From Sedimentibacter saalensis (GTDB taxonomy: Bacteria; Bacillota; Clostridia; Tissierellales; Sedimentibacteraceae): a stretch of 64,000 nt of DNA. The stretch lies in contig NZ_VLKH01000001.1 in assembly GCF_007830175.1 (NCBI RefSeq), positions 496,001 through 560,000 of the forward strand. Direction: 5' to 3'. The translations under genes were made by a program, and so were the position numbers. Shown here in pieces: positions 5,621-56,835 of this stretch (position 1 is its first letter; each line of letters begins with the position of its first letter). The notes beneath the pieces were generated by a model, which was given only the letters and a program-made list of their open reading frames with translations, was not told the DNA's origin and did not search any database.

Positions 5621-5793
5621 CAATCCTTGGATTGAGTCTGGAATAATGACAAAACTTATATATGGACGTTGTCATTCTGAGAGCTTGCTCGATGAATCTC
5701 ATATTTACAACAAAGATGAGATCCTTCACTAACGTTCAGGATGACAGCGTCGGGTTTTGTCTATAGTCTAACTTCAATCCTTGGATTGAGTCT
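5621..5793. repeat. Terminator-nested MITE-like element, locus A (core type 1)
   Basis: Two direct copies of CAATCCTTGGATTGAGTCT (5621-5639 and 5775-5793) bracket a 135-bp insert. The insert starts with an End II-like sequence (TCTGGAATAATGACAAA) and finishes with End I (GACTATAGACAAA when read on the minus strand). The core is the type 1 palindrome (TGTCATTCTGAGAGC ... GTTCAGGATGACAGCG). The repeated 19-mer is the hairpin of the terminator of the downstream aldo/keto reductase gene. The gene-proximal copy keeps the upstream A tract and the distal copy keeps the T tract (GGGTTTTTT, minus strand). The rest of 5487-5620 is leader and promoter DNA of the symporter gene. Confidence 0.85.
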
Positions 5794-20909: not shown

Positions 20910-20990
20910 GTTGCCTCCTGTTAGAAATATTTGTAAATTTATTATACTTTTTTATTTCTATGTTTGTCAACTTATTAAAAATATTAAAAA

Positions 20991-21147
20991 GTTGCTCCGC
21001 AACTCCGCTATGGGGACCTATGTCCCCCTTCGGCGTTAAAACGCATACGCGTTTTAACTGAGCACCCCCCTTGACGGCAAGGACGTCCGACATGCACTCC
21101 TCGTTTTTAATATGGTAGGAAAGTAAACTTTCCAACCATATTAAAAA
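20991..21147 (-). repeat. Multi-hairpin structured repeat, copy 1 (type 3)
   Basis: A 157-bp sequence directly after the hup terminator. On the plus strand it has a conserved hairpin GTTGC-TCC-GCAAC, then GGGGAC-CTAT-GTCCCC, then a copy-specific hairpin (GTTAAAACGC-ATAC-GCGTTTTAAC), then CCTTG-ACGG-CAAGG, and a copy-specific A/T-rich outer hairpin around AGGAAAG/CTTTCC. Read on the minus strand it ends GTTGCGGAGCAAC-TTTTT, itself a terminator shape. The second copy is at 55363-55523. Conserved loops plus compensatory stem changes suggest a structured RNA or a palindrome-rich mobile element. Confidence 0.7.
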
Positions 21148-21165
21148 GCCGTATAAACGGCTTTT
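21143..21165 (-). terminator. Terminator of hup
   Basis: On the minus strand GCCGT-TTAT-ACGGC followed by TTTTTAAT, about 35 bases after the hup stop. Confidence 0.85.
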
Positions 21166-21195: not shown

Positions 21196-21471
21196 TTAGT
21201 TTACAGCTTCTTTCAAAGATTTTCCTGCTTTGAATACTGGAGCTTTTGATGCTGGTATATCTATTGTTTCGCCAGGATTTCTAGGATTTCTTCCTTGTCT
21301 TTCTTTTCTGTCTCTAACTTCAAAAGTTCCAAACCCTACTAATTGAACTTTGCCGCCTGCTACTAGTTCGTCTTTTATTGTTTCCATGAAACCATTTAAT
21401 GCTTTTTCTGCATCTTTCTTAGTAAATCCAGTTTTTTCTGCAACGCTAGCAATTAAATCAGCTTTATTCAT
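21196..21471 (-). CDS. hup: HU family DNA-binding protein
   Basis: A 91-residue histone-like protein that bends and compacts DNA as a dimer. It has the standard start MNKADLIASVAEKTGFTKKDAEKAL and the arm signature GFGTFEVRDRKERQGRNP (the proline at the arm tip intercalates into DNA). Full length. AAGGAGGG ribosome site. It lies downstream of yabN and spoVB, a gene order shared with many Bacillus and Clostridium relatives. Confidence 0.96.
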   Translation of the reverse strand: MNKADLIASVAEKTGFTKKDAEKALNGFMETIKDELVAGGKVQLVGFGTFEVRDRKERQGRNPRNPGETIDIPASKAPVFKAGKSLKEAVN

Positions 21472-27762: not shown

Positions 27763-28050
27763 AAATCAGGCGCAAGCCTGATTGGTCCATGACAAATTTA
27801 TATTTGGATGTTGTCATTCTGAGAGCTTGCTCGAAGAATCTCATGTTTTCAACAAAGATGAGATCCCGCAGTTTCGCACACAAATTTATTAATTCGCTAA
27901 CGCTCACATAAATTTGGTGCTCATTGCGAATAACCTACCGCTATTTTTCAGAAAAACACCTGAAAAATAGGGTTAGGGCAACTTTCACTATCGTTCAGGA
28001 TGACAGCGTCAAAGTTTGTCAATATTCTAAATCAGGCGCAAGCCTGATTT
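27763..28050. repeat. Terminator-nested MITE-like element, locus B (core type 1), itself interrupted
   Basis: AATCAGGCGCAAGCCTGATT occurs at 27764-27783 (after an A tract) and again at 28030-28049 (before TTTTACATTT). Between them lie 246 bp: an End II-like start (GGTCCATGACAAA), the type 1 core, and End I (GTTTGTCAATATTCT). The core is split between GAGATCC (ends 27866) and TTCACT (from 27984) by 117 bp of unrelated sequence, which includes a perfect CTATTTTTCAG/CTGAAAAATAG hairpin (about 27941-27970). The element fills the whole space between the convergent comF and cyclo-ligase genes. Confidence 0.85.
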
Positions 28051-41354: not shown

Positions 41355-41377
41355 ATCATTATAATAGAAAATAGCTC

Positions 41378-41448
41378 TTCAATAGTCAAACAATTTACGG
41401 TCGTTCGGTAGAAACTTTGGATCCATATCATCCACATTATATTGATGC
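41378..41448 (-). ncRNA. Purine riboswitch aptamer, guanine class
   Basis: On the minus strand the conserved purine-riboswitch core is present in order: ATATAAT, GATATGG, AAGTTTCTACC, CCGTAAA and TTGACTAT. The P1 stem is TCAAT/ATTGA. The specificity base in GACTAT is C, as in guanine/hypoxanthine-sensing members (adenine sensors carry U). It lies 5' of the BMP nucleoside ABC operon, so purine sufficiency should stop transcription at the hairpin 41322-41354. Confidence 0.92.
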
Positions 41449-41477
41449 TGTTTATTTAATTATTAATTTCAATTACT

Positions 41478-55277: not shown

Positions 55278-55318
55278 TACAGTAACTGTATTATATGTTA
55301 TAGTACAGTAATTGTCAA
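55278..55318 (-). promoter_or_regulatory. Promoter with YtrA-type operators
   Basis: Minus-strand -35 TTGACA (55318-55313) and -10 TATAAT (55295-55290) are both perfect with a 17-bp spacer. A 13-bp palindrome TACAGTAACTGTA (55278-55290) overlaps the -10 end, and a second one-mismatch copy (TACAGTAATTGTC, 55304-55316) lies in the spacer and over the -35. A repressor bound there would block the polymerase directly. Confidence 0.8.
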
Positions 55319-55362
55319 CATGAATATATCTATTATTTCAGCCAATAATTGACAACAAAAAA

Positions 55363-55523
55363 GTTGCTCCGCAACTCCGCTAGGGGGACCTATGTCCCCT
55401 TCGGCGCAAAAAATACTAACGTATTTTTTGCTGAGCACCCCCCTTGACGGCAAGGGCGTCCCGCCCTTTGCAATCGCCGTTTTTTATATACTAGGAAAGA
55501 GAACTTTCCTCGTATACAAAAAA
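55363..55523 (-). repeat. Multi-hairpin structured repeat, copy 2 (type 3)
   Basis: A 161-bp relative of 20991-21147. Conserved parts: GTTGC-TCC-GCAAC, GGGGAC-CTAT-GTCCCC, TGAGCACCCCCC and CCTTG-ACGG-CAAGG. Changed but still base-paired parts: the middle hairpin is AAAAAATAC-TAAC-GTATTTTTT, and the outer stem is TATAC/GTATA around AGGAAAG-AGAA-CTTTCCT. A GGGCG-TCC-CGCCC stem-loop appears here in place of GGACGTCC. It starts right after the terminator of the AEC permease gene on the minus strand and ends GTTGCGGAGCAAC-TTTTTT. Confidence 0.7.
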
Positions 55524-55545
55524 GACTTGTACAAATGCACAAGTC
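55518..55545 (-). terminator. Terminator of the AEC permease gene
   Basis: On the minus strand GACTTGT-GCATTTGT-ACAAGTC followed by TTTTTT, 14 bases after the stop codon. Confidence 0.88.
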
Positions 55546-55559
55546 ACTTACTCTTTATA

Positions 55560-56483
55560 TTAAATTACAGTGTATAGCCAGAAAAACAGCGGTATTGTCA
55601 CAAGGGAGAACAAATGGGTTATAACAACAATTTTAGAACCAAATACACCATCAGAACCATACCTTTGTGCTAAAATCGGCATTAATGTTGCAACCGGCAG
55701 GGCTGCATAGATTACAAATATCTGCTCGATCATAGGCTCAAAATTTATAAACTTGAATATTAAAATCATAATTAACGGAGAAAGAACTAGCCTGAAAAAT
55801 GTGGCATAATAAGCTTGTCTGTTTACAAGTGATTCTCTCACTCCCATGGTCTTAATTTTGCTTCCTATAATAATCATTGCTAAAACCGTAGTGACATTGT
55901 TGAGCAAATCCATAAGATTTGTTGCAAACATCGGCAGTTTAATCTGTGTTATGTACAAGAACAGCCCCACATAAATCCCTATCATTCCGGGATTTAATAA
56001 TATATCTTTCACATTACTCTTGCCCTTGTCCTTTCCAATCATAATAGCCATTCCGTATGTCCACATAAGTATGATGTTTGGAGTTTGAAACATTGTTGCA
56101 TAAAACATTGCTCCGTTTCCATAAAGCTGATTGACAAGAGGAAATCCCATGAATCCGCAGTTCATCATAGGAACTGTAAACTTAAACATTTTTTTCTTTT
56201 CTTCATCCTTTGTGCCGATTGTGCCCAAGTTACCAAGCGCCACTAAAATAATATGAAATATAATAGCTATGCCAAGCAAGGATACACCTGTTTTAACCTG
56301 TTCAAAAGAAAATTTAATGTACATTGCCTTTATAACCATGGCTGGAATTGTGATGTTCACAAGTATAAAAGATAAGGAATTTTCTGCATCATCATTTAAA
56401 ATACTCTTACTTCTTAAGTAGTACCCAACAGCCATCAATATGGCCATCAGGATTATGCTGTTCATGAGTGTTTCTAATATCAT
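55560..56483 (-). CDS. Auxin efflux carrier (AEC) family transporter
   Basis: A 307-residue membrane protein with ten hydrophobic segments in two five-helix halves. The N-terminus (ILMAVGYYLRSKSILNDDAENSLSFILVNITIPAMVI) and the last-half segment (ALPVATLMPILAQRYGSD) are AEC signatures. In bacteria these carriers move malate, other organic acids or amino acids. Isolated gene; substrate unknown. Confidence 0.88.
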   Translation of the reverse strand: MILETLMNSIILMAILMAVGYYLRSKSILNDDAENSLSFILVNITIPAMVIKAMYIKFSFEQVKTGVSLLGIAIIFHIILVALGNLGTIGTKDEEKKKMFKFTVPMMNCGFMGFPLVNQLYGNGAMFYATMFQTPNIILMWTYGMAIMIGKDKGKSNVKDILLNPGMIGIYVGLFLYITQIKLPMFATNLMDLLNNVTTVLAMIIIGSKIKTMGVRESLVNRQAYYATFFRLVLSPLIMILIFKFINFEPMIEQIFVIYAALPVATLMPILAQRYGSDGVFGSKIVVITHLFSLVTIPLFFWLYTVI

Positions 56484-56668: not shown

Positions 56669-56835
56669 AACAGCACTTTCGTGCTGTCAGTTTGATGATA
56701 AAGTATTTAGGACGTTGTCATTCTGAGAGCTTGCTCGAAGAATCTCATGTTTTCAGTAAAGATGAGATCCTTCACTACCGTTCAGGATGACAGCGTCAGG
56801 GTTTGTCAATAGTCTGAACAGCACTTTCGTGCTGT
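56669..56835. repeat. Terminator-nested MITE-like element, locus D (core type 1)
   Basis: AACAGCACTTTCGTGCTGT occurs at 56669-56687 and 56817-56835. The 129-bp insert starts CAGTTTGATGATAAAGT (End II) and ends GTTTGTCAATAGTCTGA (End I). It holds the complete type 1 core (TGTCATTCTGAGAGC ... TTCAGGATGACAGCG). The right hairpin touches the oppF stop codon; the left copy has the T6 tail on the minus strand. The remaining 56484-56668 is leader DNA of the AEC gene. Confidence 0.88.

Follow-up and report, generated by a model that had tools for sequence, protein, structure and literature searches.

The window, a 64,000-nucleotide stretch of the Sedimentibacter saalensis genome, carries two copies of an element of ~165 bp which is multi-copy and mobile, enters the genome at intrinsic terminators in a nearly fixed orientation and is structured, and which we take to be a non-autonomous element specifying a conserved structured RNA and moved in trans by a helper. 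We put the probability of this reading at roughly 0.78, a figure that covers mobility in trans, terminator targeting and the structured RNA; a step in which the RNA would itself be the template for insertion lies outside that figure. An initial annotation of the window had described a repeat of two copies, with sequences and positions that proved correct, but searching the 3.83 Mb genome (G000) with a covariance model of the full element found ~32 full-length copies and ~8 deletion derivatives.

Copy 1 (20986..21147, minus strand, RNA sense) scores 171.6 bits with covariance model R1 and copy 2 (55357..55523, minus strand) scores 193.6 bits with the covariance model; the two are 81% identical over 156 columns (E 7e-37). 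All features given here lie on the minus strand and, read along it, the element opens with an AT-rich 5' hairpin, H1, whose base is the T-run of the preceding terminator (21104..21147 in copy 1, where the stem base is the T-run and its complement; 55480..55523 in copy 2, where the 5' base TTTTTTG(T) matches the target site and the other arm is unrepaired). A conserved core follows, starting with hairpin H2 (AAGGGCG/CGCCCTT at 55452..55468 in copy 2) and continuing through the unpaired GGGGGGTGCTCAG, the variable hairpin H4 (21035..21058 in copy 1, GTTAAAACGC/GCGTTTTAAC; 55406..55431 in copy 2) and CGCCGAAGG. Beyond these come hairpin H6 (GGGGACATAGGTCCCC) closed by H5 (H5/H6 occupying 21005..21033 in copy 1, as GGGGAC-CTAT-GTCCCC closed by CCG/CGG), then TAGCGG and a 3' terminator hairpin, H7, of the form GTTGCGGAGCAAC-TTTTT (20986..21003 in copy 1, GTTGC-GGA-GCAAC-TTTTT; 55357..55375 in copy 2). 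The predicted RNA folds of copies 1 and 2 are far better than those of shuffled sequences (z -5.9 and -7.0).

Both copies are sandwiched between a terminator upstream and a perfect TTGACA/TATAAT promoter downstream. The gene upstream of copy 1 (21196..21471) encodes what its sequence suggests is an HU-like DNA-binding protein, and copy 1 starts at the T-run of its intrinsic terminator hairpin (21148..21161, GCCGTTTATACGGC), with the consensus promoter TTGACA-18-TATAAT of the next gene just downstream at 20941..20970. Copy 2 adjoins the host terminator hairpin at 55524..55545 (GACTTGTGCATTTGTACAAGTC), downstream of a gene for a putative membrane transporter-like protein of 307 aa (55560..56483), and is followed by the consensus promoter TTGACA-17-TATAAT of the next gene (55290..55318). 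The position of both copies directly behind a terminator, as the initial annotation had it, is borne out. A purine riboswitch is also found in the window, at 41363-41464 (minus strand, 82.9 bits).

The window copies match the Rfam family RF02937 (Clostridiales-2 RNA, type sRNA) and do so on the minus strand only, so the orientation given in the initial annotation is antisense. The RF02937 core of copy 2 (55394-55485) scores 61.7 bits, above the gathering score of 58.6, as do loci L002, L005, L009 and L014, and the core of copy 1 (42.5 bits) falls under it together with L003 and L012, although copy 1 aligns with the other copies along its whole length. The Rfam family and the element have the conserved core, the strand and the hairpins in common, but the RF02937 model comprises 82 core positions only and includes neither H1 nor the 3' terminator, nor does it tell of high copy number, mobility or terminator targeting. 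No paper that names RF02937, let alone one describing mobility or terminator insertion for it, was found in a search that covered little of the subscription literature, so that an earlier description is possible.

Compensatory stem changes, first noticed between the two window copies, hold when many more are aligned. In 43 aligned copies from the genus, standard pairs make up 98.4% of the pair cells and 14 of the 47 pairs have changed on both sides, giving a covariation score of 0.189 compared to 0.069 for shuffles (0/500 reach it) and <=0.039 for slid partners. An alignment across lineages shows changes on both sides in 43/47 pairs (score 0.379 against 0.113), with the reservation that it was fitted to the structure and so is biased towards it, and that some of its rows are weak antisense or partial matches. 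Among 34 long sequences there are 41 G-U pairs to 21 A-C mismatches, which favours an RNA on the minus strand, and the unpaired core motifs are among the best-conserved columns over many families. Together the Rfam match, the many-copy covariation and the G-U bias support the prediction of a conserved structured RNA read from the minus strand, as the initial annotation had suspected apart from its strand.

The distribution of the element is patchy and its copy number differs widely between genomes. A DNA search gave matches in 9 of 24 other genomes of the same genus (15/24 being without a match) and 0 matches in 16 genomes from other families of the order, and with the RF02937 model the family was found in 29/391 genomes of the class, in 21 genera and often in multiple copies. 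Genome and viral contigs were also scanned with a degenerate pattern, which yielded mostly chance matches, and only those confirmed by covariance model were kept; the confirmed matches outside the genus include Dethiobacter and Anaerosolibacter MAGs and a single contig assigned to Omnitrophica, perhaps through a binning error. In a Clostridia MAG, one copy (L307:3043-3358) has extra nested hairpins in H2 and H6, bringing the element to ~316 nt. Carriage by phage or plasmid was rejected, since blastn against 72,556 plasmids and 50,697 phage records returned no match to the element. The complete genome of a relative, G014, contains five identical copies and others at 95-99%, which points to recent spread.

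Insertion is directed to intrinsic terminators. In G000 28 of 30 copies share the sense of the host gene and begin where the hairpin of its intrinsic terminator ends, and in G014 14 of the 16 full-length copies follow, in the RNA sense, a stem ending at the T-run, compared to about 10% of control T-runs from the same loci which lie next to a hairpin (22/241 in G000 and 22/210 in G014). Where an upstream reading frame could be called, the nearest one runs in the same sense as the element in 43 of 49 copies, and a replication-strand preference in G014 was rejected as the orientation of the element simply tracks that of the genes. The target is marked by a hairpin rather than by a sequence. Because the element brings its own terminator, the insulation of the neighbouring genes is probably kept after insertion, and a terminator T-run, lying between the terminator and the next promoter, would be a safe site for both host and element. 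In G055 and G299 a Clostridiales-2 element (L136 and L137) is read through in frame inside an AddB-like ORF, adding ~50 residues relative to B. subtilis AddB with the main hairpins kept.

Comparison with related genomes shows that the element is mobile, its insertion being polymorphic and the empty sites intact. Sites orthologous to L004, L008, L009, L010, L013 and L019 are empty in G003 and that of window copy 2 is empty in both G003 and G022, reading CAAGTCC-TTTTTTGTTGTC in G022 as against CAAGTC-TTTTTTG|TATACGAGG...GCAAC|TTTTTTGTTGTC where it is filled. L014 and L015 are likewise unfilled in relatives, but with diverged junctions, and at the three examinable sites of G014 the relatives have a terminator at the corresponding place without the element. 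The suggestion of a non-autonomous mobile element in the initial annotation is supported by these empty sites in sister species, but its statement that there is no flanking duplication is not, as both sides show the terminator T-run, in many cases together with a few more bases of the target.

This duplication comprises the T-run and 0 to ~8 further target bases (5 to ~14 in total), the bases adjoining the T-run on both sides being G in copy 2 and L004, ACA in L008 and A in L009. Past the T-run, the left and right junctions of a copy agree with each other in a copy-specific way, over a mean of 2.37 bases compared to 1.59 when the right sides were shuffled (0/5000), in a set where some copies are orthologous to each other and hence not independent. 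Most DNA transposases, in contrast, make duplications of fixed length. In G014 both element ends are constant in nearly all copies, the 3' end being CTCTTTTTA, from which it follows that the element itself contributes some of the 3' T-run and that the target is not the sole source of the "duplication". The 5' base of H1 is target-like and its 3' arm is the complement, with arms that match in L004 and L009 and mismatch in L008 and L030; no terminal inverted repeats were found between the ends TATACTAGGAAAG... and ...GGAGCAAC(T). Truncated copies in G014 retain the 3' end, with one exception, and the L019 orthologue in G022 retains ~14 bases of the 5' end together with the 3' part. 5'-truncated copies were dropped as proof of target-primed insertion because internal deletions look alike. 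L074 and L088 (G000 and G013) have an internal deletion between the GGGGG runs flanking H4 and keep both element ends.

Searches for a helper, made by neighbourhood and by named protein families, gave nothing linked to the element. The neighbourhoods of 30 distant loci share no common gene, no coding region was found in the element, and an autonomous version with the same ends was rejected since the separated end matches at L186-L189 hold ordinary genes or deletion relics and no transposase between the ends. No reverse transcriptase (PF00078) was detected in G000, G022, G011 or G007, all of which carry the element, and the reverse transcriptases of G014 are group II intron proteins of larger introns, unlinked to element copies. 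Y1 transposases are found in G000, G003 and G014, those of G000 and G014 being near the REP-associated model, but Y1 genes are present in most genomes and equally common in genomes of the genus that lack the element, and none was found adjoining any element copy in G000 or G014. TnpB (PF07282) was above cut-off in 1 of 14 genomes of the genus, that one without a detected element, and was absent from the complete genome G014, where expansion was most recent; Rfam scans of the copies gave no match to HEARO or any other guide-RNA family.

These results bear on several other explanations. A Y1/HUH transposase of the IS200/IS605 or REP-associated kind could move the element as single-stranded DNA, the end hairpins then being read as DNA, and the hairpin at each end, the lack of terminal inverted repeats, the orientation fixed relative to the target motif and the presence of Y1 genes in G000, G003 and G014 (the G000 and G014 ones close to the REP-associated model) would all suit this. 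However, insertion of IS200/IS605 elements is not known to make a target duplication, whereas target bases are found on both sides here; there is no GTAG tag, Y1 genes are as frequent in genomes of the genus without the element and are not next to the copies found in G000 and G014, and conservation of the whole core with a G-U bias exceeds what recognition of DNA ends would need, so we consider this unlikely. A DDE transposase or site-specific recombinase with T-runs as its sites might instead move it as a MITE or small integrative element. This would account for the T-runs that flank nearly every copy and for the AT-rich duplication, and has a parallel in the Bacillus cereus BCR repeats, for which PMC6542083 describes repeated TTTAT motifs and a possible recombination-like mechanism. 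This view is somewhat doubtful, as terminal inverted repeats are lacking, the duplication varies from 5 to ~14 bases, target bases such as the G of copy 2 stand on both sides, which simple reciprocal exchange does not give, and the target is marked by a hairpin and not by a sequence. The initial annotation had speculated on an orphan guide RNA of a TnpB/IscB-type nuclease, and a structured RNA on a small mobile element is what such a guide would look like, but with TnpB, the nuclease searched for, nearly absent from the genus, no guide-RNA family match, and an element that ends in its own terminator without a flank-derived guide, this is very improbable.

Two further explanations would do without a role for the RNA in mobility, or without any function in RNA. 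If the element were retained for its use to the host, as a regulatory sRNA or 3'-UTR module in dispersed copies, its mobility being old and incidental, then the sRNA type given by Rfam and the conservation of the core in many families of the class would be expected; the 15 of 24 genomes of the same genus without a DNA-search match, the very variable copy number, the identical recent copies in G014 and insertion even within the addB frame in two species make this improbable. Quasipalindrome correction is an established mutational process, and the stem changes could be due to template-switching during replication, which would keep DNA palindromes perfect without any RNA function; indeed, L009 and other young copies still have complementary H1 arms. 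Several arms stay unrepaired, however (L008 and L030), every other helix covaries too, conservation is among the highest in unpaired core motifs and the 41:21 ratio of G-U to A-C is in excess, and thus we find this explanation improbable as well. The initial interpretation is, overall, partly supported.

The reading we prefer, of a terminator-targeting element with a structured RNA that is moved in trans, gives the RNA a role, since conservation at the RNA level extends over the entire core. The RNA would be produced by read-through from the host gene or from a nearby promoter, would end at its own U-tract and would join a mobility machinery whose protein is supplied in trans. A more tentative extension, possible rather than probable, is that this RNA is the template for insertion: a bottom-strand nick between the A-tract and the hairpin of a terminator would leave ...AAAAAA-3', which could pair with the UUUUUU end of the RNA and prime cDNA, and the far end might then be joined through microhomology of the target (TTTTTTATAT...) with the 5' arm of H1. 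Such a target-primed, RNA-template model would explain the orientation, the requirement for a T-run (an A-tract primer on a U-tract), the variable duplication and the 5' microhomology. The lack of a detected reverse transcriptase in four carriers, G000 among them, weakens the RNA-template step, unless the helper has been lost or was missed.

Several known systems resemble the element in part. Eukaryotic SINEs have a non-coding structured RNA, spread in trans, and show a variable target duplication with the 3' end retained. By analogy only, the element may be likened to them in its non-coding structured RNA, presumed spread in trans, variable duplication and retained 3' end, but neither an internal promoter nor a partner reverse transcriptase is evident here; a bacterial counterpart of a SINE, in which a 165-nt non-coding RNA undergoes reverse transcription primed at a terminator A-tract, with its own U-tract as the priming end and a reverse transcriptase borrowed in trans, is a rather unlikely proposal. 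Group IIC introns insert at intrinsic terminators (PMC4424553) and the element too lies in sense directly after them, but it has no catalytic domains or reverse transcriptase, makes a target duplication and not a precise insertion, and is far shorter; an intron remnant was rejected as Rfam scans that do detect true introns in the genus gave no catalytic-domain match in the element. REP elements are likewise short, palindromic, intergenic and non-autonomous, with RAYTs proposed as helpers in trans (PMC3733652), but the element has no recognised GTAG/CGTC end tag, its conserved core is far longer and its target is a terminator. Repeats of Bacillus cereus (bcr1 and others), compared by description only, are similar in being short (100-400 bp) and present in tens of copies in each genome, and in having a T-rich motif and possibly a recombination-like mobility, but belong to another host group, and the passages of PMC6542083 concerned contain neither terminator insertion nor this sequence.

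An orphan Rfam family gains context from these observations, as the Clostridiales-2 copies of this genus are mobile-element insertions with a precise landing site. They also caution that a family catalogued as "sRNA" and present in many copies could be a selfish repeat and, if the RNA does belong to mobility, the element would represent a new sort of small mobile system based on RNA.

A second dispersed repeat of ~130 bp, with the core GATCCTTCACTATCGTTCAGGATGACA and ends near TTGACAAA/TTTGTCAA, was seen in dozens of places in G003 and G022. It occurs in the window at 5720-5746, 27979-28005 and 56766-56792 (plus strand), and further places are L016:1765, L025:1711 and L176-L181. At L016 and L025 a terminator hairpin flanks this repeat on both sides, as if duplicated on its entry into a terminator.
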